Under the pieces are notes generated by a model. That model was not told where the DNA came from. It ran no database searches and saw nothing but the letters and a program-made list of their open reading frames with translations. This document shows positions 13,190 through 30,800 of a stretch of DNA of 64,000 nucleotides, one piece after another. The DNA comes from Silvibacterium acidisoli (GTDB lineage Bacteria > Acidobacteriota > Terriglobia > Terriglobales > Acidobacteriaceae). Numbering within the stretch: position 1 is the stretch's first letter; every line of letters begins with the position of its first letter. The stretch covers positions 1,054,001 through 1,118,000 of the forward strand of contig CP085323.1 in the NCBI GenBank assembly GCA_022870745.1, given 5' to 3'. A program made the position numbers and the translations under genes.

Positions 13190-13276
13190 GCCTGGATGGC
13201 GGAATCGGCAGACGCAGCGGACTTAAAATCCGCAGACCGCAAGGTCGTGGGGGTTCAAGTCCCCCTCCGGGCACCA
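13190..13276 (+). tRNA. tRNA-Leu, anticodon TAA
   Basis: An 87-nt class II tRNA with encoded CCA (13274-13276). The acceptor stem pairs GCCTGGA (13190-13196) with TCCGGGC (13266-13272), with one G-T pair. The anticodon stem GCGGA/TCCGC closes the loop CTTAAAA, so the anticodon is TAA, reading UUA. The variable arm (GACCGCAAGGTC) and T arm (GGGGGTTCAAGTCCCCC) are intact. It marks the left border of the unusual 13-44 kb region, but I see no second copy of its 3' end and no integrase. Confidence 0.95.
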
Positions 13277-13712: not shown

Positions 13713-13940
13713 TCAGCAGGCTACGGCCAGACCGCCTCCCTGCCAACTGATGGCGCCGCGCAATGCACAGCATGCGGCACAATTCCAGTTGCCTGGAATA
13801 TTGCCATTCTGATCAAAGCAGCGACCGATGATGCTGGTGGGAACGCCCGCGCAGGATGAAGGCGTAACTCCTGTGGCAGACGGATTGTTTTCGGTGAAGA
13901 GGGCGCGGCGGACGGGCTGTTGCTGTTGGGGAAGTCTCAT
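13713..13940 (-). CDS. Cyanobactin-like RiPP precursor peptide B (Cys-rich)
   Basis: A 75-residue peptide, ATG at 13940 after a strong AAGGAG box (5-nt spacing). Leader: residues 3-12 are LPQQQQPVRR, an exact match to the cyanobactin leader pattern LPxQxxPVxR. Residues 24-28 are GVTPS, matching the GVEPS/GLEAS elements that precede core peptides in PatE and are cut by PatA. The predicted core (29-75) has six Cys (30, 41, 54, 57, 58, 75), a CAACC cluster, and a hydrophobic, Gly-rich end. It lacks the heterocyclase-binding LAELSEEAL segment and a C-terminal AYD-type macrocyclisation signal. It lies 29 nt after peptide A and shares its leader without gaps. Structure of the mature product unknown; disulfide or thioether links are possible. 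Confidence 0.72.
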   Translation of the reverse strand: MRLPQQQQPVRRALFTENNPSATGVTPSSCAGVPTSIIGRCFDQNGNIPGNWNCAACCALRGAISWQGGGLAVAC

Positions 13941-13969
13941 GGTTTCTCCTTGTCTTTCTGCGCGATACG

Positions 13970-14143
13970 TTATTCGGATTGGCAGATCTGGCCGGTGTTG
14001 CAGTTACAGAGGCATCCGTATCTGCATTCTCGATTCTGGCCGCAGCACATGCACATGTCGGATGGCCTGACGCCTGCCCCGCTGCGCTTATCGCTCGAAA
14101 GCAGACTGCGAGGAATGGGTGGAACCTGGTTGGGAATTCTCAT
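13970..14143 (-). CDS. Cyanobactin-like RiPP precursor peptide A (Cys-rich)
   Basis: A 57-residue peptide. I place the start at the ATG at 14143 (MRIPNQ), since this aligns with peptide B from the first residue; an AAAGGAG box lies upstream. Residues 3-12, IPNQVPPIPR, are a conservative form of LPxQxxPVxR, and residues 24-28 are GVRPS at the same position as in peptide B; 12 of the first 28 residues are identical. The core (29-57) carries eight Cys (31, 33, 34, 40, 44, 46, 48, 54), over a quarter of its residues, including CMCC and CLCNC. Such density fits a metal-binding or multiply cross-linked peptide. It follows the protease gene by 68 nt on the same strand. Too short for most gene finders. 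Confidence 0.72.
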   Translation of the reverse strand: MRIPNQVPPIPRSLLSSDKRSGAGVRPSDMCMCCGQNRECRYGCLCNCNTGQICQSE

Positions 14144-14211
14144 GATGTGCATTTCTCCTTTCAATCCTGATGGAGTGAGGGGTTTTATTAGCTCAACGAA
14201 GGAACAGGAGG

Positions 14212-16149
14212 CTATTGATATACCTCCCAGTGACGAACCTTGCCAACGGTGACAGGGATGACATCGCTGACGTCGACGGTGAAGCGGTAGACCTGTTTGG
14301 CCTGCTCAAAGCGGCGCGAAGGATTGAAGAAACTAAGCTTGATATCCCAGCAATCGGAGCGAGGACGACAAAGCGGGCTGCGCTCGTATTCGATCCGATC
14401 CAGCGTCAGAGACGAGACAATCGCATTCTCGAAAACCTTATCGATCTGGTGAGCGTTGGTTGCCGCGAAGTTGATGGCACGTTCATGAGGAGCCGATCCA
14501 AGGTTTCGCAACTCGTAGTAGACACGATCGAGGAAATTGCCGATGTGGGCCTGGCGGGCCTGCAGTGCGCCGGAGTCGTGCGTAACCTCCGCAGTGACAG
14601 CTTGAACCAGTGCGGCCTTTGACCAGTGATACATGCCGCGAATTTCCGGAGCGATGATGGGGACAGACTGTCCGTTGAAGAGCATTACACTGCCAGCGAC
14701 ATAGCCCGGAATCGACACGACGTCGACTCCTTCAGCGATCTGGCTGTGCAGCGATTCACGTAGGCGCTCATAGCCGATAGTGGCATAGGCGCCCACAGGC
14801 TGAATCGCATAGATCGGGGTAGCATCCTGAACGACGATCCAGATGAACGCTGGAGCAAATTCGGGGTGTTCGGTGACAAAGCTGACCACAGCAGATCCAT
14901 CCTGAGGTTGAGACAGACCTGCCTGCAAAAGAGAGTCGCGCCGGGCTTCGGTGCCGAAGTCGTATGCAACCTGGCCCAGAACGTAGACGAGACGTGGAGC
15001 GGCGGATGCGCTACCACCGCATCCACATCCAGCCGGTATGACCTGGGTGTCGGCGGCACACTGCGGAATAACAGCCGGCGGAAAAGATTCCGATGGCACG
15101 GCTTCCGCCGTGCTGATTTCCAGCTCTTGCATAGAAATTTCTCCTTGAGCAGATGGTTGATCGGATTGGGACGCAGCACGGACTGCAGTAGGGTTAAGCT
15201 CCTGGCTGCGAGACGTTACGGGAAAGTGTTCGGCAGAGGATTCAATAAGAATTTTCTGAAGCGCGCCATCAACGTTGAGGATGCCGGCAAGACAGCGCTT
15301 CGAGAGCGCGTTGCCGGGATCGCAAATAGAAGCGCTTTCGATCAGCGCTTTACGCACGACACGGGCATCGGTCTTTCCTGACCGCTGCAACTGCAAAGAC
15401 AACAAAAGCGCAGCCACGCCAGCGACAAGAGCATTCGCAAAACTGGTTCCGGACTTCTCGGCAACATCCGGGCCAGGAACGGCGCCAGGAATAGATTCTC
15501 CGGGAGCAATAATCCCGTGATGGCAATAGCCAGGATCCCAGTTGCTAAGAGCCATCGGCTCGCCTTTTGCACTGAGCGCGCCAACGGCGAGGACGGATGG
15601 TATGGCAGCGGGCACATTTGCGCACTCACAACCCTCATTGCCGGCTGCTGCGACGACGAGAACATTGCCGTCTTCACAGTCCTTGAGTGCATCAAGCAGA
15701 TAGCGGTCAGCGCTGGTGGCGGGACCGAACTGCCCTCCGCTGATGGAGATTAGGTTTGCGCCGGCATCGATTGCAACGCGAATGGCACGCGCCAGATCAA
15801 GCTGAGAACAAGGGATTAAAGATCCGTCGATCGCCTGGTGAAAGATTGGGATCAGGAAACCCGTGCAGCGAGGCGCCACACCAGGGACAGGGCCTTCAGG
15901 CTGGCCAAAGATGAGACTCGCTACGTGAGTTCCATGCCGCGCGGCAGTGCCACTGAGGTCGACCGGTTGAGTCTCGATGTATTGAAGACTGGCACCGGCG
16001 AAAGCCGGGTGCGCAAGATCTGCTGGGCCATCGAGAATCGCGACGCGTATGGCGGGGTGTCCCTGGGTGAAGGCCAACAGAGCATTCAATCCAGGAAGAA
16101 CAAAAGACAACTCACGTGGATCTCGGCAATGGCTTGCAGTCGACTGCAT
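14212..16149 (-). CDS. PatA/PatG-family cyanobactin-maturation-type subtilisin protease
   Basis: A 645-residue protein, start ATG at 16149 after AGGAG. Residues about 20-260 are a subtilase (S8) domain with Asp40 (ILDGPADLAHP), His72 (RHGTHVAS), oxyanion Asn171 (AAAGNEG) and Ser236 (SGTSFANA). A linker with GCGCGG leads to a C-terminal part (about 395-645) with LVYVLGQVAYDFGTEARRDS, PIYAIQPVG, RGMYHWSKAALV, RVYYELRNLG and RFTVDVSDVIPVTVGKV. This is the conserved accessory domain pair of the cyanobactin PatA/PatG proteases. These cut leader from core; PatG also joins core ends. There is no oxidase domain and no signal peptide. It heads an operon with peptides A and B, its likely substrates. 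Whether it cleaves only or also cyclises is not visible. Confidence 0.86.
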   Translation of the reverse strand: MQSTASHCRDPRELSFVLPGLNALLAFTQGHPAIRVAILDGPADLAHPAFAGASLQYIETQPVDLSGTAARHGTHVASLIFGQPEGPVPGVAPRCTGFLIPIFHQAIDGSLIPCSQLDLARAIRVAIDAGANLISISGGQFGPATSADRYLLDALKDCEDGNVLVVAAAGNEGCECANVPAAIPSVLAVGALSAKGEPMALSNWDPGYCHHGIIAPGESIPGAVPGPDVAEKSGTSFANALVAGVAALLLSLQLQRSGKTDARVVRKALIESASICDPGNALSKRCLAGILNVDGALQKILIESSAEHFPVTSRSQELNPTAVRAASQSDQPSAQGEISMQELEISTAEAVPSESFPPAVIPQCAADTQVIPAGCGCGGSASAAPRLVYVLGQVAYDFGTEARRDSLLQAGLSQPQDGSAVVSFVTEHPEFAPAFIWIVVQDATPIYAIQPVGAYATIGYERLRESLHSQIAEGVDVVSIPGYVAGSVMLFNGQSVPIIAPEIRGMYHWSKAALVQAVTAEVTHDSGALQARQAHIGNFLDRVYYELRNLGSAPHERAINFAATNAHQIDKVFENAIVSSLTLDRIEYERSPLCRPRSDCWDIKLSFFNPSRRFEQAKQVYRFTVDVSDVIPVTVGKVRHWEVYQ

Positions 16150-17037
16150 CCCCACTCCTCATCACGCTGCCAGACAAAAGCCCGGCATGCATTGGCCGGA
16201 TCAGACTTCGCTGCGAGCAACAAAGCGCTATATACATAGCGACTTATGCAGATCTGCCACAAGCATTACGTTGTTCTGGGAAAACCACAGTTACAGTCGC
16301 ATCTCGTAAGAACCAATCTTTGCGCTGCATGGTGCGCTGGATCTTCGAGTACTTTTAAAGACGGCGAAAGTATGCACTCACTTTAAAGATTCGTCTAGTT
16401 AAAATCTGCTAGCACCCCACCATATACCGCAACGAACCTGAACTACATTCGCTCTGACCGGAGACCTCAATAAGTCAGATCGCGTCACCAATGCAACATC
16501 GAGCAATAAATCCGAGATACAAATACGGCTTAAAAGTAAATGCGTATCAATCGCTTGCGCATAGCAAAAGACATCCTGGTAGCTGAATAATTAGATAAAA
16601 ACGTTGCCCATAATGGATGCAACGCATGATTGCCGCAACAGTTATGCATTTTGAAGCGACACGTAAGTCATCTACCCAACTTACGACTCGCCTTCGCATT
16701 TTAAATTGAGAAGAATTCCGCAAAATAACTCAAAATTACTTGCAATATAGAATCAAGTCGTGTAATCCTGCTCCAGTTCTCGCAGCGTACGAAGAGATTC
16801 GCTAAGCAGAGATGATGTATTCAATCTCAATCATCGACATTGAGATTGTGTTTGGGTTATTGCTTCAACTCTTACTTCCTATCTTCACCCAAACACTTAT
16901 TTAACTCTTGGCAGTTCACTGGTATTTGCCAAAGGCCTGTAGGCGAGATCGTGCCTGGTGGCTGCGATCCGTCCTTCTCCGCACTTCGCCTGCCGGGAAG
17001 GATAAACACCGCTATGTCTGGCGGATATGGAGGACAC
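16150..17037. promoter_or_regulatory. 888-nt AT-rich divergent intergenic region
   Basis: This gene-free stretch separates the protease-peptide operon (minus) from the plus-strand giant-protein series. From about 16300 to 16900 it is much more AT-rich than the flanks. It should contain promoters for both directions. No long open frame here has a ribosome-binding site and family signal. One clear element, an inverted repeat, is at 16822-16848. Its length and base bias suggest extensive regulation or an acquired segment. Confidence 0.6.
16822..16848. repeat. Perfect 10-bp inverted repeat (candidate operator)
   Basis: CAATCTCAAT (16822-16831) and ATTGAGATTG (16839-16848) with a 7-nt spacer, about 190 nt upstream of the first gene of the plus-strand series. 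The geometry suits a dimeric regulator; a leader RNA hairpin is also possible. Confidence 0.55.
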
Positions 17038-17643
17038 ATGTCTAAAAAGTTTGCCGACCTTACCGAGGAACAAAAGCAGAAGTTCAACACGCAACTGGCG
17101 TCTTTCGGTATCTCACCGAAGGACGTTCCGGCAACCATCGTGGCTGATGGGAAGGTGCATATGCACCATGACCCGGAACTCGCCACGGTGAAGACCTTCA
17201 CCTGCCAGGTAAAGGATCTGGCGCAACTCAAGCGGCTTTGCGGGGTGCCCGATAAAGTCTTCCAGCAGCCCGGTTCGGATGCGCATATTCCCTACCCAGC
17301 GAAGTTCGCCGCCGACCGCGTCCGCCTGCTCGCCGGCGGCAAGAAGGAAGTTGCAGCCGCCGCGCTGACTGAAAGCGAACGCAAGCTGGTTGACTCCTCG
17401 ATGGTTTCCTACATGCTCGGCAACTCTTCCCGCGTCGCTCCTGAAAATGTGCAGGCAGTCAATGCTCTCAACTTTCCCATGACCATCAGTGTCGCTGCAG
17501 CACAGGATCTGGTCGTTTCGGGACCCTACCAAGTGACGCAATCTCTGGTATGCGGCACCATCACGATCGAGCCGAGCGGCTATCTCGAAATCATCGGCGA
17601 TGCGTCCATTCAGACGCAGGTTTTTACCGTGGAGGGTAGGTAA
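17038..17643 (+). CDS. Uncharacterised soluble protein, first gene of the giant-protein series
   Basis: A 201-residue protein. Start chosen as the ATG at 17038, 5 nt after a GGAGG box; longer frames run into AT-rich non-coding DNA. No signal peptide. Residues 1-60 are charged and helical (MSKKFADLTEEQKQKFNTQL); the C terminus (about 150-201) is beta-like and ends in a SGYLEIIGDASIQTQVFTVE segment that resembles the strand modules of the downstream Gly-rich proteins. It is followed 6 nt later by the first collagen-like gene. I do not recognise the family; a chaperone, anchor or first subunit of the assembly is possible. Confidence 0.65.
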   Translation: MSKKFADLTEEQKQKFNTQLASFGISPKDVPATIVADGKVHMHHDPELATVKTFTCQVKDLAQLKRLCGVPDKVFQQPGSDAHIPYPAKFAADRVRLLAGGKKEVAAAALTESERKLVDSSMVSYMLGNSSRVAPENVQAVNALNFPMTISVAAAQDLVVSGPYQVTQSLVCGTITIEPSGYLEIIGDASIQTQVFTVEGR

Positions 17644-17649
17644 GCACTT

Positions 17650-18351
17650 ATGAGCACTCACGCGAATCTGTGGGTTGGACTTGGCGCCGACGAAACTCCT
17701 GCTCTTTCAACGGTAGGAGTTGCAGGCACGGCAGGCACAAATGGCACAAACGGTACGGGAACGGGCGGGTCTGGCACCAACGGCTCCGCAGGCAGCCCCG
17801 GCAAGAACTCATGCGCCACCCAGGCAACGGCCGGGTCGGCCGGAGCAGAGGGCGCAGCGGGTGGTGACGGTTCCAACGGAGGAGCGGGGGGAGCGGCGTT
17901 GAACGTCAACCTGCAGGCCGGGGAAATCAGCGGCACCTTCATCGTCTACAACTCCGGCGGAAATGGCGGAAATGGCGGCAACGGCGGCACGGGGCAGACC
18001 GGAGGCACAGGAGGTTCAGGTGGCGCCGCAAACGGCAACTGCGCGCAGGCACCGGGCGGTAACGGCGGCACAGGCGGCAAGGGTGGAAGCGGTGGAAGTG
18101 GCGCGAACGGCGGCAATGGAGCCATCGTCAATGTCACTTATTCCAGCCTCGCGTCCGGAGCACAACTTGTAGCCAAGGTGCCTCTAAGCGCCGGAGGCTC
18201 AACCGGCTCGGGCGGGACAGGCGGCACCGGTGGTGCCGGAGGAGCCGGGAACCCAAACGGGCAGCAAGGTGCGTCTGGAGGACCCGGCGCGAACGGCACC
18301 ACGACCGGCAATGCGGGTGCCGCTGGCACGGTCAACTTCAACCTTGGCTAA
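17650..18351 (+). CDS. Collagen-like Gly/Asn-rich protein 1
   Basis: A 233-residue protein, ATG at 17650. More than a third of its residues are Gly, in blocks such as GGNGGNGGNGGTG, with Ala, Ser, Thr and Asn. The blocks are broken by two strand-like modules: one near residue 90 (GEISGTFIVYNSGG) and one near 160 (IVNVTYSSLASGAQLV). No signal peptide, no Lys-rich or Pro-hydroxylation repeat as in true collagen, and no PE or PPE domain. Related modules occur in the next two genes. A polyglycine-II type structural role outside the cell is possible, but no export route is seen. A hairpin follows the stop codon. Confidence 0.75.
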   Translation: MSTHANLWVGLGADETPALSTVGVAGTAGTNGTNGTGTGGSGTNGSAGSPGKNSCATQATAGSAGAEGAAGGDGSNGGAGGAALNVNLQAGEISGTFIVYNSGGNGGNGGNGGTGQTGGTGGSGGAANGNCAQAPGGNGGTGGKGGSGGSGANGGNGAIVNVTYSSLASGAQLVAKVPLSAGGSTGSGGTGGTGGAGGAGNPNGQQGASGGPGANGTTTGNAGAAGTVNFNLG

Positions 18352-18354
18352 TCC

Positions 18355-18391
18355 GGCTCAACGGGAAGGTATCTTTGCTTTCCGTTGAACC
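18355..18391 (+). terminator. Intercistronic hairpin after Gly-rich gene 1
   Basis: GGCTCAACGGGAAG (18355-18368) pairs with CTTTCCGTTGAACC (18378-18391) with one mismatch and one G-U pair; 9-nt loop. It starts 3 nt after the stop codon. There is no T-run after it, so RNA stabilisation or partial termination is more likely than full termination. Confidence 0.5.
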
Positions 18392-18435
18392 GCTTCTGCG
18401 AACGGCAGAACAGCATCGCTGCCGAGGAGAGTCAT

Positions 18436-19170
18436 ATGTCTGCTTCGATCAATCCAGCAATTGTCTCCAATGGAGTCGCGGGCATAGCCGGCAAGACAGG
18501 ATCAGCCGGAAATGCCGGCCAGAATGGCACTGCGGGCAAAGATGGCACAGGCGAGCGCGGCGCCTGGGGGAAATGGAAATGCACCTGCTCTGGCAACGGA
18601 GGAGCAGGTGGCGTAGGCACCTCCGGGAACACTGGCTCTGCGGGAACGGACGGCTATTCAGCTCCGAACTTAGGACTTACTTACTCCGAACTGAACGGAA
18701 ACCTTTACATCCAGAGCACATCTGGTGATGGCGGCGATGGTGGAACAGGCGGAGCAGGAGGAACTGGAGGCATGGGCGGTAATGCCGGACAAAATCCGGT
18801 TCCGCAATGTCTTGGAACAGGCAATTTCTGTCCTTATCCAGCCATTGGCGGGAATGGTGGCAACGGCGGCAATGGTGGTCCGGGTGCTAATGGTGGCGTG
18901 GGTGCACTGGGAGGCGCGATCTATGTTGGAGGTCCCACACCTGCGGCTCCTCTGAACCTGACCATGGGCTCTATCGGCGGAGCCGGCGGAGCAGGAGGCG
19001 ATGGCGGCGCGGGGGGCAATGGCGGCGCGGGCGGCCTGAACGAGAAAGTGGATCAAGACGATCCGGACACTTATGCCCAGAGCGGTAATCCCGGCGCAAC
19101 GGGAGCACCTGGAAACGCCGGCAATGCAGGCAATAACGGTTCCACGACCTATTACCAGAACCAGGCGTAA
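18436..19170 (+). CDS. Collagen-like Gly/Asn-rich protein 2
   Basis: A 244-residue paralogue of the preceding protein; start ATG at 18436 after GAGGAG. Gly-rich blocks (GGNGGNGGNGGPG and similar) alternate with strand-like modules: LTYSELNGNLYIQSTSG near residue 80 and LNLTMGSIGG near 175. It has paired Cys (CTC near residue 51; two more near 120-130) that could form disulfides. No signal peptide. Its function probably mirrors that of Gly-rich protein 1: a filament or scaffold component of the same assembly (inference). Confidence 0.72.
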   Translation: MSASINPAIVSNGVAGIAGKTGSAGNAGQNGTAGKDGTGERGAWGKWKCTCSGNGGAGGVGTSGNTGSAGTDGYSAPNLGLTYSELNGNLYIQSTSGDGGDGGTGGAGGTGGMGGNAGQNPVPQCLGTGNFCPYPAIGGNGGNGGNGGPGANGGVGALGGAIYVGGPTPAAPLNLTMGSIGGAGGAGGDGGAGGNGGAGGLNEKVDQDDPDTYAQSGNPGATGAPGNAGNAGNNGSTTYYQNQA

Positions 19171-19178
19171 GGTGCGTG

Positions 19179-21773
19179 ATGACACAGAGCAATGCGACTC
19201 CTGCTGCCGCCTTCAGCGCACTCGACGCCACATCACTGTTCTCGCTGGCCACAGTTGTGAATTACCCGATGGGAAAGGCTCCGGTCATCGATCCTTTCCA
19301 ATTGGTCGGAGTGATGCAGCCCACGCAATACACGGCAACAGCGCAGGGGCTGGTCGGGTTTGGAACACTGCTTTCTACGGGGGCGACAGTAGCGGTCGCG
19401 GTGATGGGCTGGCAATGGGCCAGCTTTCTCGCCAAGTACAGCGATTCCTTGCACGTACTTTCCTCTTTGATGTTCACGTATCCCAATATGCCTGCGCAGC
19501 CGCCGCCATCCTTCGACTACGGCTACAGCCTGCAGTACAACCTGTTCCGTCAATCGTTGTGGAAGCTGATTCAAACCACGAAGAGTACGGTCCTGCAATT
19601 CAAGACCGTGATGCCGTTGGTTACGATAGGATACGGGCCGTCGGCTCCGCTGGCGCAACTGGCGGCACTCGACCTGCAACCGGGCAACAGCTACACGCCA
19701 CCCGGTGGCTCGAAAATCACCTCGCCCATCACATCCGTCGGGTGCTATGCGTATTCGTGTCCGGCAGCAGGCGATGCCGCCTTTGCAAGCAGCTTTAACC
19801 AGTGCGTTCCGGCGGCATATTCCGTCAATCTGAGCACCAGCAGCAACAATCCTGTCGATGTTTACCCGACGGTCTCCGGGCCAGCCTCTGCCGGCTATAC
19901 GGCAGCAGGACAGGCGCAAGGGCTCTCTGCGGTGGTGCCTGAGCCGGTGTGTCCCTGGCTCGAACGCGAGTGGTACAACTACGGAAATTCTCTCAATGCC
20001 GCGGAAGCAGTCGAAGCCGGTGAATCCGTGCCTACGATCCCAGGACAGCAGCCGGGCGTCGATACAGGCAACATCGTTCCAGCCGCACCAGCTGGATACG
20101 ATGTCAATCTTGCCTATAACTTCACATTGTTGTGCTCGGCGGTCTACTCGCTTTACGAGCACCCGGCCGATGCTCTGAACCTGCCGGATCCCTACTCCCT
20201 GGTGCAGAGTTTCGCAGACAGCAGCGGCGACCTCTGGGCTGCGATGTTCACAGCTCCGGGCATGCTGGTGGTAGCGTTTCGCGGCCCGGACACGTGGGCT
20301 GAGACAAACTCGATCTTCGGCGATCCAACCCTTTCGTTCGACAACCCGAGCGGCGTTCTCAACAGCTACCTCACGCTCTTCCAGCAGTTGCAGCCGGCGA
20401 TATGGGATGCGCTCAACAGTGTTGGCATCTCGGCGCAAACCATCTATCTCACCGGTCATTGCGGTGGTGGATGCCTGGCCTCGCTTGCGCTGTACACACT
20501 GATAAAGAATCCCCTGCCAGGACTTACGGTAGGCCCGCTCTACACGTATGGCGCACCGCCGGTCGGCAATTCAGGCTTCGCGACTACGTTTAACGCTGCC
20601 TGTGCCACACAAAGCTTTCAGATCGCGCGGCCCAAAGACATCTTCCCCAAACTGTTTTCTACAACGCTGAGGACAACGGGCACAACGATCCAGCTGAATG
20701 GCGGTTTGGCGGACACGCGCAATTGCTTCAGCTACCACGACATTGCTGTTTACGCTGCGCTGCTCGATCCCGAATCTTCAAGCCTGAAAGTTCCCATGGA
20801 ACTGTCGGCATCAGGAGCCGAGCAAAGTTATCGGCAGAAATTGAAGGCCACGCAGCTTTCCTACCAAAGTGACGTGCACAAATGCGTCCTCAACACCAAC
20901 GAGAATCGCGGGCAAATTATTCTCTCCTGGGACAAAGGCCGCTCCTGGCTGCCCGCAACACAATATGACGGCGACGGAGTTGCGCACCTTGGCCTGCAGG
21001 ACGTCCTGATTCAGGCAGGACATGAGTTGCGTATCGAAGCTCCGCACCAGCAAAAGATCCACGTCGCGGCGCGTTCGATCCTCATGGGACCTGGATCAAA
21101 ACTCACGATCAACACCGGCTGCAAACTGGCGGCCGGCGAACTCCGCGCGGTCCCCAACAGCAGTTCCGCACAACCTCCGACCATCCTGGTGGTCGGACCC
21201 GATGGCACGAACGGCGCGCCAGGTTTTACCGGGTCAAACGGCTCGCCTGGCGGCCAGGGTATGGCGGGCGGGACAGGTTGCGCAGGCAGCAACGGCGGAT
21301 ATGGCGCGAATGGTGGAGCATGCCCGGATACACAATTCTCCTTCCACACCTTGAGCGGAACCATCTCGGTCGTGTGCCACGGCGGCGCAGGCGGTAGTGG
21401 GGGCGCAGGAGGAAATGGTGGTGCAGGTGGGACGGGTGGCTGGCTCGATGGCGGACGCATGGCTCCGGGAGGAAGTGGCGGCTGCGGTGGCAATGGAGGA
21501 CTCGGCGGTAACGGCGGGGCAGGCGGTACCGTCACGATCTCTTACGTCGAAATGGAGCCGGGCACCATCCTCAATATCGATACGACTCCTGCTCCAGGTG
21601 GATCGGGCGGAGCCGGTGGCGCAGGCGGTAACGGCGGGTATGGTGGGCCGCCTGGACTCAACGGTACTCCCGGCACTTCCGGACAGCCCGGCGCGCCCGG
21701 GACAGACAGCAAGGTCGTCATGATTCAACAGGCACAGGATTCAACATCGTCAAGAGCGTCTTCGCCGGGTTAG
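19179..21773 (+). CDS. Lipase class 3-like alpha/beta hydrolase with Cys nucleophile and Gly-rich tail
   Basis: An 864-residue protein; ATG at 19179 preferred over GTG at 19176. Residues about 300-535 are an alpha/beta hydrolase like fungal-type lipase 3: MLVVAFRGPDTW, then the elbow TGHCGGGCLASLAL, TYGAPPVGN, RPKDIFP and YHDIAVY. The usual elbow is GHSLGG; here the nucleophile position is Cys428, with Asp487 and His520 as the remaining triad. Residues about 570-680 are beta-rich, and 680-850 are a Gly-rich tail with two modules (SGTISVVCHGG and VTISYVEMEPGTIL) that match Gly-rich protein 1. N-terminal 300 residues unrecognised. No signal peptide. It could be an acyl hydrolase or transferase fused to the scaffold type of its neighbours. 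Confidence 0.75.
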   Translation: MTQSNATPAAAFSALDATSLFSLATVVNYPMGKAPVIDPFQLVGVMQPTQYTATAQGLVGFGTLLSTGATVAVAVMGWQWASFLAKYSDSLHVLSSLMFTYPNMPAQPPPSFDYGYSLQYNLFRQSLWKLIQTTKSTVLQFKTVMPLVTIGYGPSAPLAQLAALDLQPGNSYTPPGGSKITSPITSVGCYAYSCPAAGDAAFASSFNQCVPAAYSVNLSTSSNNPVDVYPTVSGPASAGYTAAGQAQGLSAVVPEPVCPWLEREWYNYGNSLNAAEAVEAGESVPTIPGQQPGVDTGNIVPAAPAGYDVNLAYNFTLLCSAVYSLYEHPADALNLPDPYSLVQSFADSSGDLWAAMFTAPGMLVVAFRGPDTWAETNSIFGDPTLSFDNPSGVLNSYLTLFQQLQPAIWDALNSVGISAQTIYLTGHCGGGCLASLALYTLIKNPLPGLTVGPLYTYGAPPVGNSGFATTFNAACATQSFQIARPKDIFPKLFSTTLRTTGTTIQLNGGLADTRNCFSYHDIAVYAALLDPESSSLKVPMELSASGAEQSYRQKLKATQLSYQSDVHKCVLNTNENRGQIILSWDKGRSWLPATQYDGDGVAHLGLQDVLIQAGHELRIEAPHQQKIHVAARSILMGPGSKLTINTGCKLAAGELRAVPNSSSAQPPTILVVGPDGTNGAPGFTGSNGSPGGQGMAGGTGCAGSNGGYGANGGACPDTQFSFHTLSGTISVVCHGGAGGSGGAGGNGGAGGTGGWLDGGRMAPGGSGGCGGNGGLGGNGGAGGTVTISYVEMEPGTILNIDTTPAPGGSGGAGGAGGNGGYGGPPGLNGTPGTSGQPGAPGTDSKVVMIQQAQDSTSSRASSPG

Positions 21774-21859
21774 CAGCGTAGACCAACAGCAGCTTCACGC
21801 CATGCAGCGATCGCAGTGCGTGCGTTCTTTCGAGAAACGCAACCGAAGGTGGACTGACT

Positions 21860-24800
21860 ATGGGTACGCAAACCATTCGATACGCCGACATCGGCGCCGG
21901 AGACAATTCTCCGATCGAGATCAGCGGACTCGATCCTACGGTGGCCAAGCTGGGACTGGCCGTCGGGCTCCTTCAGCCTGGTGAGGGTGTCGATACCTAT
22001 TTGCTCAATACAGCCTGGTTCGCCGATCCGCTTGGCGCCACGCAGCTGTCCCTCACCACAAACGGTCCGCAACTCGCCGATCTGATCGCGGCCTTGCTGG
22101 GCAGCCTGGGAGGCACAGCTCTGGGCATTCCGCTCGAGAACACGCGCAATCTCGGCACCTGGTACCCGATCCTCAATCCATCCACCGGACAGCCCACCGG
22201 CCTGTATCTTGTCTCGCAGACTACCGGTGCCCTTTCAATCTTCAGCCTTGGCATCAACTACAACTGGCCTCTCGGAGACACCTTCGCCATTCGTGCCTGG
22301 GGGTTGCTGCCCATCCTTCAGGTTGGAAATGCCTCTTACGAACTCATCATCGGGCAGGATAGTGCTCCGCTCACTGTCGGCATTGAGACAGCTTCTTCTA
22401 CTCCATTGATCAACGCATATGGGCTGCAGCTTGCGGGAATGCGTTTAACCGGAAGCCTGGCATTACTGCCTGATGCTTCGGCATCCATCTCGCTTGAGGC
22501 CGTGGGTCTGCAGCTCCCGGGCGAGAGCGAACCGAAGGACCGCTCTCTGTCCGACCTGGAACAACTCACGGGCACGCAGATTCTGGCCACGGTCTCCACG
22601 ATCTTTGTGGCAGCCATGTCGGACGCGTTGGGTACGCCCGATAACCCTCAGCTCGGCTACGTGCTGCCTGTGCTCGGAATGTCGCCTGTACTGCCGCAGG
22701 CGGTCCAGACGCTCTTTCCCGATGCGGTCATGCCGTTGCTGCGCTGGGACGAGATGATCACCGCGGCAATCAACGGTGGTAATCCGGCGCAACCCTTTAA
22801 AAACTGGTTTAGCGCACTACTCTCAACTCCGGATGTTATGGGAGCATGGCTCGCGTCCATCCAGGGGCTCGAAGGTTTAACGCCGAGCGCGGCAACTGGG
22901 TCGGGAACACGCGAGAATCCCTGGAACATCGCAATTCTGAGCAATTCCGTTGGCGCATTGTCTTTCCAGTTCGCCACCCTTGTGAACAAGGATGGCTCGC
23001 GAACGTTTTATCCGGGTCTGGCGTTTCGCTCCTCCAAGGTACAGCTCGGGACATCGCAGGCGGCACTCCAGATGGCTGCCGATCTGGAGCTCGCGCAGTT
23101 CAATCTGTCGCTGGGCGGAGTAAGCGGCGATCCCACCAACCTTGCCTTCGCATCGACCATGATGCTGGTTGGGTTCGGAGAGACGAGCGGCGTCAACAAT
23201 CCACTGTTTTCAGGATCCATCGCCGGGCAGCAATACACCTTTGGCTCCCTCGTTGCCGGACTGCGCATTGGCTACGCGAACGGTCAGCTGAATGTCGTTC
23301 CCTCATTCACATTGACCGGCCTCGATACGCCCGCCGGAACATTTCTCGCACTCGATCTGCTGCAGCCCATGAAGGTCCTGCAGGAAACCCAGACCGTGGT
23401 GGCAGGCCTGATCAACAGCGCGTTGCAACAGATGTTCGGCATCACGGCCGATTCAGCTGGCACCCCATCTTATGCGCTTGCCGCACTGCTGGGCGTGGTG
23501 CCACCGGGTGTGGGAACGGGCAACACCTGGCCTGCGAATCTCGATCCGCCACTGAGCGCTACGCAGCTATTCAACTCGGTGCAAAATCCCGTGCAGGCCA
23601 TGGCGACGTACTACTACAACATCGTCAACTCGACGGCCACGATCGGCAGCCAGGCTCCTTTCTTTTACATGCTGCGCGAGATGGCAACGCTGCTGCAGGC
23701 TCTCACGCAAGTCGCGACGCCGTCAGTAACTGGAACCGGTTCGCCACTCGATCCATGGAAGGCTTCGCTGACCGATCCGGGCACTCTGGTCGCGGACGTG
23801 ATTGCCTACACCGCACCTCAGCCAAACGGAGCGGACCGATTGGTTCTTGGCATCGACCTTGGACTGCAGCTCGTGCCCACGGCCGGTCTCAACGTCAATC
23901 TCATCCTGTCCCTCGAATTGCTGGCGCTGGATCTCTCGCTGGCTAACGGCGCGGTCAGTTGTGCGCCGCAAATTCTTCCCGGTCTTGGCCTCTCGCTTTC
24001 GCTGCCTGACGGCTATACCTCGCCCGCCGTATGCGGCACATCCATCTCCGTGAGCGCGAGCAGCGCGCAGATGGGTTGGAGTCCCTACAGCGGATGGTCA
24101 TGGTCGATGGAGGTTGGGCAGCCTGCGCTCATCTCCGGAGGCCACAGCTACCCTGTCGGCCAGAACATGGTCTACACGCAGGGACAAAGCCTTGAAGATC
24201 TGGTGTTGCAACAGGCCGCGACCTTCGGACAGATCCTGGTCGGCGTGCTCGGACTGGCGACAATGCAGGCCAACGATCGCGCAGGACTCGCCTTCGCGGG
24301 CATTCTCGGCCTCTTACCGAACCTCGGCCCGTTGATGCCTGAGGGGCTTACCTGGCCCGGCAGCATGCCGACGCTGACGGTCACCAGTTTCAACGATCCA
24401 TTTCAGATTCTGCGCACGCAGCTCGTGGGCATCTTCAGCACGCCGGCAAATCTGCAAGCGGCGCTGCAGCTGCTCGCCTGGGCCTCATCGAACTCGGCAA
24501 CGGTGCCTGCAATTCCCGGCTCGGGTACGCTCGAAGATCCTTTCCACGTGCCACTTGGCCTGCCGGCCAACATTGGCATGGCCATCTGGTCGGATGGGAC
24601 CGCAGGCACAGCGGGCATCGGGCTTGATAACTACGGCGTGCTCAATGTCTCGAGCTCCGTGCAATGCACCAGCAGCATCGTTGTCCGCCTGCTCAACGTA
24701 ACCCTGTCAACCGGCGCGCCGGTTGTTGTTGCGGGCGTTCCCGGTCTTAGCGTCACCTGCAAAATGGCCAACCCTGGCGGCCAACTCCTGCCACCGACGG

Positions 24801-27800
24801 CGGACGGCACCTCACTTGACTGGCTCGTGGTTGGCGCAGCGGTTGGAATCAGCGGAACCTTCTCCGCGCCGCAGGTAACGGTCACCCCTACGTTCCTGCT
24901 GTTCAATCTCACATTACCGGGACAAAGTGCTGTTCCGGTTGCGAATCTGGCTGACCCCGGCTCGCTCACGCCGCAGCTTGTGCAGGACGCATTCCGCCTC
25001 GGCCTGCAGGTGGTGCTGCCAACCGCTGTAACCATGGAGCCTTTTCGCACCGCCTACAATCTGCTGGCTACCATGGGGCTGGCGCTGCCCAACGAGGCGG
25101 GGCAGCAGCTGGGCATCAACCCTGCAGGGTGGCGCGGCCTGCTTGCTGATCCACTTAGCTTCTGCAAGGACCGGCTGATCGCACTGGCTGCCGATCCTGC
25201 CACGCAGTCGAGCTTCCTGACCATCCTGCAACAGCTCACAGGAGTTACGCTGCCGACGATTCCGGCAAGCGTGCTGGATTTTCTCGCAGCAATGGGACTC
25301 ACACGGTCCAAGGAAGCGGGATATGTCGTCATTCCCTCGAACTACGTTGCGCTCTTCTCGCACCCGGTTGTTTATGTGCAGACAGCCTTTGCAGCTCTGC
25401 TGGCCGACGAAGTACGGCTCGCTGCGCTACTGGCCTCGCTGCAACAAAGCAGTGGCGTTATAACCTTCAGCAAATTTCAGCTACAAGTATTCTCCGGCCC
25501 GGTGGTGCAGATCACGTTGCCGCCCGGCTCGGTTTCTGCCGGAACCATGCTGGAGGTTTCGGGTGTGCTGCGCGTGGCGCTCAATGCAGGAGCGCAGAGC
25601 TTCAGCCTGGCCATGACGCTCTACAATCCGCAGATCGGCATCGGTTTCGCACCGACACTGACGGGCAACTTCTCCGGCGACTTTGCGATCACGCAATTTA
25701 TCACCTTCGGCGACGGCACACAGCCTGCTCCCGCTCCGCTTAAGATATGGCCATTCAACAGCACAGAATTTGTCAACGCTTTCGCTACGGTTGCACCGTT
25801 CTACGCGCTGTCGATCATGATTTCTCAGGTCATCGATCCGCAACTGTTACAGAAATACACGCTGGTGCAGGCACTCTTCGCCATCCTCGGCATCGCTGAA
25901 CAGGATCAGGACGGCACATGGCACACCAAGGCCCTGCTGGGTCTGTTCGAGGATCCGCTTGGCTGGCTGTTAAGTGACGCCGTTCTCGGCGCGGATGGCA
26001 AGCTCAACATCCCGCAACTGAACAAGCTGCTCCTGCAGGTTCCCAACGTTACCGGCACAAAGCCCACGATTCAGCAGATCGCAAACGGTATCCAACTAGG
26101 AGCATTGCCATACAACCTGCAGATTGCACTCACCGCAGACAAGGCCACAAACCAGGTTGTGATCTCGCCCAGCATCACCGGTACGATCCCTGTTGCAGGA
26201 GGGGCCGCTTCCGTCACGGGTCTTGTCTTCAACCTGTCGCTTGGACCGGATTTCCAACCGGGATTTGGCGGCACCGTCACGATGGCGATCAAATCGCCAT
26301 CACTCAGCGTGACAACCGGCTACGACAAAGCATTCCTGCTCTCGGTAACGTTGAGCGGCGATCCACCTGCGGTCCTGCAACTGGTGCCTTTTACCGGCTG
26401 GCAGCAACTGCTGAGCACTCTGGCATCGTATGCCGCCGCTCAAATCGTTCCACAACTCACGACTCAGCTCCTGCAGGCTCTCTCAGAGAACGGCGCAGCC
26501 GCGTTCGCCACAGCCATGCAGACGGCTGGTACGAATCTCAACGTGAGCGCCCTGTTAAGTGCCCTGGTCGCTTCTGGAGGCACGCTGGACGATCTCGAAA
26601 CCGCCGCGCTCAACTGGCTCGGCCAGAGGTTGACTGCGACGAACATGACGCAGACCGCGCAAGCCGTCGTAGCTCTTCTACAGCTTGCCCTGGGCAACAG
26701 CGTCACCTCCAGCGGAGGGCTGGTCAGCTACATCCCCTCGCAATCTTTGCCACTCTCGCTGCAAGCGGGAGCGCAGGGCAACACCCTGGGAGTATGGGCA
26801 TCCATCACGATGCCTTCAAACCTTGCGGTACAGCTCTCCGTCGCGCCTACGGGCCTAGCCCTGCCTTACGATCCCGCCACAGGAGCCATTACCGGCGGTC
26901 CCGAGTTTTCTTTCGGGCTGGGCATCGGTATTCCCATCAAGGGTGAAACGAATATGCCGTTGCTCTCGATGGGATTCGCCAACCAGAAGTTCACTGCCGG
27001 CTTCGATCCCATGGGCACGCCCAGCACGCAAAGCGATCTTTACGTCGAATTACTGCCGCAATTTTTCTCCAACCCTCAAAACCTTGAGCAGGAGGTAGAA
27101 GCATGGCTGTTAGATGTCTTCACGCAGGTGGTTCCGCGTTATCTCTCGCTTGTCATGCTGAACCAATCCACGGTCAAGGGCTGGCTGGATAGCTCCCTCT
27201 TCAGCACCACCACGCCGGGAACAGTCCTCGTCGCATCCGGACTGCTGGTCAAGAACGAAAATCTCTACCTGTTACAAACCTTCGCCGCGCTGAGCAGCCT
27301 GACAGTGAGCGCATTCCTGGCCAATCTCCTGAAAGCGCTTCTCTCGGTACAGGTCAAGATTCTGGACTTCGGTGCGAAAGGTCAGGTCTGGATTGGTCCC
27401 AACGAGGCGGGGTCGAGCAATTACGGCATCATGATTGCCGCGCAGAACCTGAGCCTCGACGTCGCGCCCAACTTCGTCTTCCAGCTCGGAGCATCGGACT
27501 CCGCCTGGATCACCGCTGCCGGCGGCCCAACCGGCCTGCATGCCGGACTGAATGTCTTTGTCCCGATCGATGAGAACGGCATTTACTTCGAGAAGCTCCT
27601 GCTGCAGTTAGTCAACATCGGAGTGGACTTTGTAGGACGCAACAAGGCGCCCCTGATCGATCTAAGCCGCTTCACCGTGCGGGCAATTCAACCACGCGGC
27701 CTGCTGCTGTTCGATTTTGCCAAAGGTGGCACGCCTAACGTGTGGGGTGGCGAGGTCACGATTGCGGACATTGGCATCTCGCTTTCTCCGCAGTCCATCG

Positions 27801-30800
27801 GCTCGGGGGGGAATCCGGTAGCGCAGAATCTGCTCGGGTCCGGCTCTTCTGACGGCGGCGCAGGCACGGAAGGAAACGCTGCCAATCCGCCATTCTCGTT
27901 CCAGGCAGGTTATGTCTCGAACAATGGAACCGGTAAATCCGTCGTGGAACTGCTGCAGGGCGGGCAGGTGGCACAGGAGCTCTGGTTCCCCGTGCAAAGC
28001 GGATTCGGACCGATCCATGTCAATCTACTGGGCGTCAAATGGATCTCCCCACAAACCGCGGGCGTGGGCTTCGATGGAAACCTCAATCTCGCGGGGTTGG
28101 GTGTCGCGGTTAAAAAGCTCACTGTCAGCTTCAATGTTTTTGCGCCCACTGACTACACGCAATACCAGCTCGATCTTGCCGGCCTTGATGTGACCTTCAA
28201 CAATGGCCCGGTCGCCATTGCAGGCGGTTTCCTCAAACAGACCAATCCGCTGCAATATACCGGAACCGCGACGCTGAGCTGCGCCAGCTTCACCTTCAAC
28301 GCAATCGGCTCTTACGCGGTGGTTCCGGTAAACGCGTCGCTGCCCGGCTGCCAGCAGGCAGGTGGAGACTGCCCCACGGCCGCATCACTCTTCATCTTCG
28401 TGAACCTCAATGCTCCGCTCGGCGGGCCGCCTGCGTTCTTCATTACCGGACTTGCCGCCGGGTTTGGTTACAACCGGAACATCCTCATTCCCGCAGTCGG
28501 CGATATCTCCACGTTCCCATTTGTCATGGGAGCCACCGATCCGAGCTACTTCACTTCGGATGATCCCGCGACTGTGCTCACCCAGATTTCAAACATCGTT
28601 CCTCCGGAAATCGGCGCGTACTGGGTCGCCGCCGGGATCAAGTTCACCAGCTTCGAGCTGCTGAATACCTTTGCGCTGCTCTTTGTGAAGTTCGGCAAGG
28701 GCTTCGAGCTGGACCTGGTAGGCGTAACCTCGGCCGCGCTACCGCCAAGGAGCCCGCTGACGCTCGCCTACATGGAGCTTGGCATCCTGATCTCGTTCCG
28801 TCCCGACGAGGGCTACATCGCCGTGCAGGCGCAGCTTACTCCGAACTCTTATTTACTGGCTCCACCCTGCAGGCTTACCGGAGGATTCGCATTCATTCTC
28901 TGGTTTTCAGGCGACTTCGTGCTTACCCTGGGCGGCTACAACCCGCTCTTCAGCAAGCCGCCGCAATATCCTGAGGTCCCACGCCTCGGCTTCACATGGC
29001 CGGTGTCGGTCTCCGCAGGCGAGCTGAAGATCGCTGGCGGAGCCTATTTCGCGCTCACTCCCACGGCCATCATGGCGGGCGGTTATCTGCAGGTGGCCTT
29101 CACACTTGGCCCGATCCGCGCATGGCTCAACGCAGGTGCTGACTTCCTCATCCAGTGGAAACCTTTCTATTACGACATCTCTGTCGAGGTCTCCATCGGC
29201 GTGGCTTTCCATACCGAGATTCTGGGAATTTCCATCACGATCTCCGCCTCGCTCGGAGCGGCGCTTCACATCTGGGGACCTGAGACCGCCGGATATGCGG
29301 AAATCAACTGGTATGTGATCTCGTTCACGATCCCCATCGGCGACCAGAACAAGAATCTCCAGACCCAGCCACTGGGTACCTGGGACGATTTCGCAAACGC
29401 CTTCCTGCCGCCTGCGGACACGTCTGTACATAGCGGGATCGAGAGCGAAGATCCTCAGCCTCCGGGCGCGGTCCTGACACTCAGCGCAAGCGCCGGTGCG
29501 CTCTCCGGGCCTGCGGGTAATGGAGCCAACGGACAACCCAATGCGTGGGCCCTGACCATGGCCAACTGGCAGATCCAGGTCAGCACGGCGGTGCCAGCCA
29601 CATCCCTGCAGCTCAACGGAGTGGCGCAGGCTAGCGGCAAACCCATGGGCGTCCGCCCGATGAACCTGTCTTCCGCTACCACGCCGCTTTCCGTCACGCT
29701 TTCCTCCTGGAACGCTCCAACGAGTACATGGATACCGCTGACGCTCAGCGAAACCACCCTCACGCTCGGCATACTCAGCAACGATGCGCCCATGGCCCTC
29801 TGGGGTCAGGGCGCACTCAACCTCGACTCGCCGCCTACTGCGCCCTTCAGTATCGCCGGAGCCTGCGTTGGCCTTACCGTCTCCGGTGTCGATTTCACCT
29901 ACAGCAATCCAATCGGCCCCATTCCCTTGCAACAGGCGTTTGCCTTTGCTCCGGCCACGCCACGCAGCTTTCCGAATCAGCCGCAATGGACAGCTCCGCC
30001 AGCCAATACACAAAGCGGCGCCTTGCAGCGGTTGAGCGAAACCGTCATGGCGCCAGCGGTTATCGACATGCGTAACCAGGTGCTGGCGGCACTGGAAGGC
30101 ATGGGGATGAATGTCTTAAAGAACCCTCAACTCCCGGTCATCGCTGCGTATGCGGACGCTCTTTTTCAGGCGCCACCCTATCTCGCTCCGGTAGGAGTCG
30201 ACTCCGCGCCGGCGCCAGCGACCATCGGATCGGCGCCGCAACTTGCCGCAGCGACGAAGTCTCAAACCGTTACGCCGCAGACGCCGGCATCCATCCAGCT
30301 CATCGGCGGCATTTATCGCAACTCCTGGCCCGGCAATCAGGCCGTTCGCAAAGTTCGCAGCCGGGGCGGCGAGGAAGGGATGCGCCTTCAGATGCCGGTG
30401 GCACGACAGACCGGCCGGTGGATTGGTCCACTTCGCTCCGGTGTGCCCAATTCCAACCTGTCGCTGCTGCGAGCACAAATGCCGCAGACCGGCAACGCTT
30501 CAGAACCGGTGGGAGAGCGGCTCAGTGTGGCCCCTGGTGCAGCCTTGCTCGTCGAAACCAGCCTTCCTGCCGGAGCTAAGGCAATCGCAAGCGTTTCAGG
30601 AAATATCCCCGTAAGAGTCTGGGCATTGAACGCATATGACGAGCTGGTCGGTGCAAATCTAGTGGAGCCCGGCAACAACGTTACGTTGCCCTCCGATATC
30701 TCGCATGCCGTGATGAGCGGCGAAAGCCGTCGCACCGTGCAATCGGATAAGACGGTTGGCTGGCAACTCTCCAGCACACTCACGCAGGTGGGCCGTTACA

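Follow-up and report, generated by a model that had tools for sequence, protein, structure and literature searches.

A PatA-type protease encoded with two Cys-rich peptides in an acidobacterium: a putative heterocyclase-free relative of the cyanobactin pathway

What does a cyanobactin-type maturation protease act on in a genome with no match to the YcaO heterocyclase? This question is raised by a locus of Silvibacterium acidisoli, a soil acidobacterium whose genome is complete in a single contig of 5.36 Mb. In the 64,000-nucleotide stretch of DNA that was analyzed, referred to here as the window, three consecutive genes on the minus strand encode a protease, peptide A and peptide B in this order, with gaps of 68 bases between protease and peptide A and 29 bases between peptides A and B. 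As read from the sequence, each gene has a Shine-Dalgarno-like sequence immediately 5' of it. An initial annotation had described the two Cys-rich peptides as lying 3' of the protease on its own strand; its coordinates, strands and motifs were correct on re-reading, and the following features bear out this arrangement.

14212..16149, minus strand: PatA-type cyanobactin maturation protease, S8 domain, disordered linker, PatG_D and PatG_C (TIGR03895, Pfam)
ATG at 16149, stop at 14212, minus strand: protease start, with AGGAG at 16155-16159
15331..16050, minus strand: S8 subtilase domain (PF00082, 83 bits, residues 36-275)
15019..15042, minus strand: linker motif VIPAGCGC, putative self-cleavage or pseudosubstrate site in the disordered linker
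14719..14988, minus strand: PatG_D domain (PF18047, 34.5 bits, residues 390-479)
14227..14556, minus strand: PatG_C domain (PF18065, 134 bits, residues 534-643)
14154-14161, minus strand: ribosome-binding sequence AAAGGAGA, upstream of the peptide A start
13970..14143, minus strand: peptide A, 57 aa, leader MRIPNQVPPIPR, predicted 29-aa core with 8 Cys
14060..14074, minus strand: GVRPS, predicted cut site at residues 24-28 of peptide A, fitting the RSII consensus, at the same position as in peptide B
13946-13951, minus strand: ribosome-binding sequence AAGGAG of peptide B
13713..13940, minus strand: peptide B, 75 aa, leader MRLPQQQQPVRR, predicted 47-aa core with 6 Cys
13857..13871, minus strand: GVTPS, predicted cut site at residues 24-28 of peptide B
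13190..13276, plus strand: tRNA-Leu(taa) adjoining the locus, possible insertion site

The open frame of the protease extends to a GTG at 16155. The left flank of the tRNA-Leu is kept within the genus and the right-hand sequence differs in the 4 congeners examined; the right side is likely a variable spot. The divergent neighbours (window 17038-31417, plus strand) encode Gly-rich repeat proteins, a lipase class 3 with a collagen-like tail and a DUF6603 protein of 3185 aa.

Does the protease belong to the PatA/PatG family, as first proposed together with its C-terminal domain pair? A profile search, which had been suggested as a check, agrees: the protein scores 621 bits against TIGR03895 (cut-off 421) over model positions 1-605 of 606, and S8, PatG_D and PatG_C follow one another with scores above their Pfam cut-offs. 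The catalytic Asp, His (HGTH), Asn and Ser (GTSFA) are present, and the triad columns are invariant in two homologue alignments. Against solved structures the S8 part scores 261-269 bits over PagA (4h6w, 269) and PatA (4h6v, 264; 3zxx; 3zxy), with 47-51% identity, and 159-162 bits against the macrocyclase PatG (4h6x, 162). Since it is nearer to PagA and PatA than to PatG, we classify it as an A-type leader protease and not a macrocyclase; it meets the A-type test and fails the G-type test. The C-terminal part matches the PatG DUF structure 4uvq, and an AlphaFold model (mean pLDDT 83) agrees with these structure matches. There is only one PatG_C gene in the whole 5.36-Mb genome, and it is A-type. 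The S8 domain is identical between genome G213, which is of the same class as the window, and the Terriglobia contig L106, which places the window in Terriglobia. The DUF domains of PatA/PatG have a novel fold for which substrate binding was not detected (PMC4259220). A claim that they bind the leader was dropped, as by NMR the PatG DUF did not bind PatE', with heterocycles or without; this contradiction covers the PatG DUF, not the DUFs of A-type proteases (PMC4259220).

Both peptides begin with MR[LI]PxQ. The initial annotation had recognized LPQQQQPVRR at residues 3-12 of peptide B as a cyanobactin leader, and it is indeed an exact LPxQxxPVxR, of which residues 3-12 of peptide A (IPNQVPPIPR) are a looser version. 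GVxPS occupies residues 24-28 of both, where it had been placed, and is an exact RSII in each, so that the leader and the predicted cut site can be read directly from the peptides. In the entire window the leader/site pattern has only these two matches. Neither peptide matches any Pfam or NCBIfam model, including TIGR03678, TIGR04446 and PF19155; a genuine PatE in L083, used as positive control, matches TIGR03678 and PF19155. The two cores end in ...TGQICQSE and ...GGGLAVAC, no AYDG-like RSIII site is present at either C-terminus, and the heterocyclase-binding segment LAELSEEAL is absent, as had been remarked at the outset.

Are these short frames translated into proteins that matter? The whole peptide B precursor aligns with an Oxalobacteraceae precursor at 59% identity, further homologues occur in two Janthinobacterium, Shewanella hanedai and one alphaproteobacterium, and the core is conserved in these five proteobacterial genomes. 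Different codons are used at 54-70% of the identical residues. This conservation of the protein while the codons diverge means that selection acts on the reading frame as protein, and peptide B thereby withstands the codon-level check on which the initial proposal could have failed. In 299 Terriglobia genomes, and likewise on plasmids, peptide B was found nowhere beyond its own genome; the locus is therefore patchy. An AlphaFold fold of peptide B was set aside for its low confidence (pLDDT 57).

The modifying enzymes were sought at different scales. YcaO (PF02624) has no match in the complete genome, with positive controls detected; tblastn with the PatB and PatC of L018 found neither in the window; and no PatD or SagB-type oxidase lies near the locus. 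The lack of cyclodehydratase and oxidase described initially thus holds genome-wide for YcaO and nearby for the oxidase. Of the label cyanobactin-like, the likeness stands, as protease, leader and RSII are related, but the system should not be called a cyanobactin. Judged by its sequences it is related to cyanobactins and not itself one, because it is without a G-type macrocyclase, PatB/PatC and an AYDG-like C-terminal site, and because its precursors match neither TIGR03678 nor PF19155. Among the criteria for cyanobactins, the leader with an RSII of G(L/V)x(A/P)S is met (more loosely in the peptide A leader), and G-type macrocyclase, PatE-family precursor, PatB plus PatC, and RSIII are not. 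The criterion for azol(in)e peptides (TOMM/LAP), a YcaO cyclodehydratase, is likewise unmet.

How far does this layout reach? When GTDB genomes were scanned with an alignment of the protease, the best 80 of 338 relatives were retained, and the addition of plasmid and Terriglobia loci gave about 88, 60 of which are without PatB, PatC, PatD or oxidase. When the leader pattern is widened slightly, 86 peptides are found directly 3' on the strand of the protease at 49 stand-alone loci; one of these, L060, contains a cyanobactin-type cluster as well, at a distance of some kilobases. The hosts belong to Cyanobacteriota, Planctomycetota, Acidobacteriota, Bacillota (clostridia), Gemmatimonadota and the alpha-, beta- and gammaproteobacteria, and include a Hydrogenedentota MAG, a Streptomyces plasmid and an archaeal MAG, whose contig is possibly mis-binned. 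The strict pattern has 78 matches on the same strand within 2.5 kb downstream of proteases (226 kb of strand sequence) and 19 elsewhere (2.0 Mb), a concentration that places the matches beyond chance; inspection showed each of the 19 outlying ones to be a precursor of this type as well, in most cases the PatE gene of a cyanobactin cluster.

Because the same layout recurs across many bacterial phyla, the two-part arrangement looks like a widespread, undescribed relative of the cyanobactin pathway. A text search of the open-access literature found no description of such systems; papers on Acetobacteraceae and Saccharopolyspora mention only lone 'cyanobactin-like' genes. The search for such peptides beside homologous proteases that had been called for succeeded in related as well as distant genomes, and a minimal protease-plus-precursor system with long Cys-rich products remains the best reading. 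The locus had been placed in an apparent acidobacterium; it does occur in one, but as part of a multi-phylum family. When neighbour genes were clustered, no enzyme or exporter emerged as a third conserved component of the loci. Viral spread was rejected, since a protein query found no relatives in viral contigs. In a cyanobacterial subgroup (L065, L070, L074 and relatives) a SAM-methyltransferase-like gene lies 3' of the locus and the cores are two-Cys or Cys-free (..GLARNLCMAAY); this is perhaps a modified sub-branch.

The peptides of these loci show what the cores have in common. An RSII-like motif occurs in 37 of 65 strict-leader peptides (shuffles: mean 3.3, maximum 10), and the other 28 have no clear GVxPS-like motif. 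Cores most frequently contain 6 or 8 Cys, and of the 36 families with Cys 33 have an even number (binomial p = 1e-7), each family being counted once as the sequences inside a family are related. This parity points to disulfides and not azolines, and speaks against heterocycles in the product; it would also fit metal binding. A minority of core families is free of Cys, for example in L065, L070 and L106, so disulfides cannot be universal. Core families recur across phyla (Nostoc with Shewanella, Calothrix with an alphaproteobacterium), and two to five peptides with unrelated cores often share one protease.

A related motif is found within the enzyme itself. Linkers of 38 of the 46 stand-alone proteases carry [VIL]-x-[PA]-[SAQ] with CxC or CxxC no more than a few residues behind it (shuffle control: mean 0.36, maximum 3). 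The motif, VIPAGCGC in the window, sits just before PatG_D, and the linker between S8 and the C-terminal part (residues 300-373 of the AlphaFold model) is disordered, with pLDDT <50. Canonical cyanobactin A-proteases have VTASQ or VTPSQ in this linker, without Cys and resembling their own RSII. In a split type from other Terriglobia (L002, L003, L005, L006, L010, L013, L015 and the extended loci L024-L035), S8 and the PatG_D/PatG_C protein are separate genes, followed 3' by up to five Cys-rich peptides with a leader M..PGFTAEASL and a VxPQ site, which no family model covers and whose Cys numbers are again even if two cysteines of the leader are left out of the count. Here the N-terminus of the DUF protein carries [VLI]xPQ[AS]C..C; as split linker and peptides both have VxPQ, enzyme and substrate motifs change together between types. 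The linker motif copies, within the enzyme, the motif at which the substrates are predicted to be cut. A self-cleaved PatA protease domain is known from the title of PDB 3zxx, which does not state the bond. The protease probably cleaves its linker or is controlled by way of it, the cut being inferred. A tight pairing of P or A at P2 between linker and own peptides is not claimed, as exceptions occur both ways. Between the split S8 and DUF genes lies a conserved protein of 68-69 aa (..GLGDAIKRATYAMGIKPCGGC..R.AALNRW..; L002:663-869, plus strand; L003:2457-2666, minus strand) with no Pfam or NCBIfam match.

Taken together, family identity, operon, leader with site and the absence of YcaO are well supported by sequence, and we are fairly confident in a two-component system in which removal of the leader after GVxPS releases a linear, disulfide-rich peptide. 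Two precursors with an LPxQxxPVxR-type N-terminal leader and a GVxPS processing site would be produced with no modifying enzyme involved. The PatA-type serine protease encoded beside them is inferred to read the leader, any other enzyme being absent, and to cut after GVxPS, because PatA is known to cut the RSII consensus G(L/V)E(A/P)S in cyanobactins (PMC10885120). This would release a core of 29 aa and 8 Cys from peptide A and one of 47 aa and 6 Cys from peptide B, and both would then form disulfide bonds, probably outside the cytoplasm; these bonds too are inferred. Ring closure is not expected, a linear product being inferred from the absence of a macrocyclase. The self-processing of the protease at its motif-bearing linker, or its regulation there, belongs to the same inferred steps. 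Most likely the products are exported and bioactive, directed against competitors or serving as signals; both this role and the export route are guesses, the former prompted by the many cores, their patchy spread and the position at a tRNA-Leu beyond which congeners differ. Against the two-component reading count the lack of cleavage, expression or mass data and of a linked dedicated exporter, as well as the strict-leader peptides without a clear site, the Cys-free cores, the fit of even Cys numbers to metal binding and the low-confidence fold of peptide B.

Could the locus instead be what remains visible of a genuine pathway for cyanobactins or azoline peptides, its modifying genes having been lost or being located in another part of the genome? 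Its protease, leader motif and RSII site are all of cyanobactin type, and a heterocyclase is missing from some cyanobactin clusters, where clusters without the D protein have been noted (PMC4603692). We nevertheless find this hardly credible: YcaO is absent from a complete single-contig genome that has one PatG_C only, the AYDG-like C-terminal site and the LAELSEEAL segment are missing, Cys parity is even, and the gene-poor layout is repeated in the 60 loci counted above. Rather than natural products, the peptides might also be proteins that regulate or inhibit the protease, or Cys-rich proteins with a structural or metal-binding role, activated intracellularly by leader removal. An inhibitory peptide-protease complex could form, as the linker with CxC resembles a substrate, and metal clusters also suit even Cys numbers, yet peptides with unrelated cores, two to five of them, often depend on a single protease, and core families are common to several phyla regardless of species. 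Many cores shared across phyla fit secreted effectors better than the regulator of one enzyme, and we hold this alternative to be unlikely.

The same linker gives rise to another doubt, namely that its motif is a Zn- or disulfide-binding CxC/CxxC or a disulfide-forming redox element in which V-x-P-S is incidental. CxC or CxxC does follow the motif in most stand-alone and split systems, and the canonical linkers with VTASQ/VTPSQ manage without Cys. That they keep the V-x-[AP]-S part in the absence of Cys, however, speaks for the cut motif, as do the joint switch of split systems and their peptides to VxPQ and the co-occurrence of CxC linkers with Cys-less cores (L097, L106); a mere Cys element is possible but on the improbable side.

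In which order did cyanobactins and stand-alone systems arise? A quick tree placed cyanobactins within the stand-alone proteases. This claim was dropped after AU tests, which rejected neither a single stand-alone clade (p 0.88) nor a single clade of canonical A and G proteases (p 0.86), both constrained trees scoring higher than the quick tree; from these sequences the order is not resolved. It is conceivable, if somewhat doubtful, that cyanobactin leader proteases fall within a much larger multi-phylum class of systems made up of a protease and Cys-rich peptides. In this class the protease, not the heterocyclase, would read the LPxQxxPVxR leader, and enzyme and substrates would co-evolve a common cut motif (V-x-P/A-S or V-x-P-Q) that also serves self-processing, with cyanobactins as a specialised branch.

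With protease and precursor only, the leader-cutting half of cyanobactin biosynthesis is separated from the modifying half, and functions of the leader motif and the PatA/PatG DUFs become testable directly in vitro. The loci offer a simple two-gene toolkit for leader removal and reveal a large, mostly unannotated pool of peptides of the disulfide type, spread over many phyla, whose core families move from one phylum to another.

How does the system compare with known ones? Disulfide-containing bacteriocins and other Cys-rich peptides follow the same proposed logic of leader removal and a disulfide-stabilised product. Their leader is cut by a dedicated protease, and export is of the double-glycine or Sec kind, whereas the locus encodes a cytoplasmic subtilase that carries the DUF pair, and no exporter is linked to it. 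Heterocyclase-free cyanobactins (anacyclamide/piricyclamide type) share an A-type protease and the lack of YcaO; however, they retain the G macrocyclase and PatB/PatC and yield short macrocycles, and their precursor model TIGR04446 does not match peptide A or B. PatB (TIGR04220) at L108:8161-8397 (plus strand) and at other cyanobactin loci begins with MRLPKQSPPVKR, the precursor leader motif, and for this reason may be cut by the protease or may once have been a precursor. With cyanobactins such as the patellamides (PatA, PatE, PatG of the pat cluster) the system has in common the A-type protease with its DUF domains, the LPxQxxPVxR leader and the GVxPS-type RSII. It differs in the absence of the PatG macrocyclase, PatB, PatC, PatD/YcaO, oxidase and RSIII, in its long even-Cys cores, one per peptide, and in its occurrence far outside cyanobacteria.
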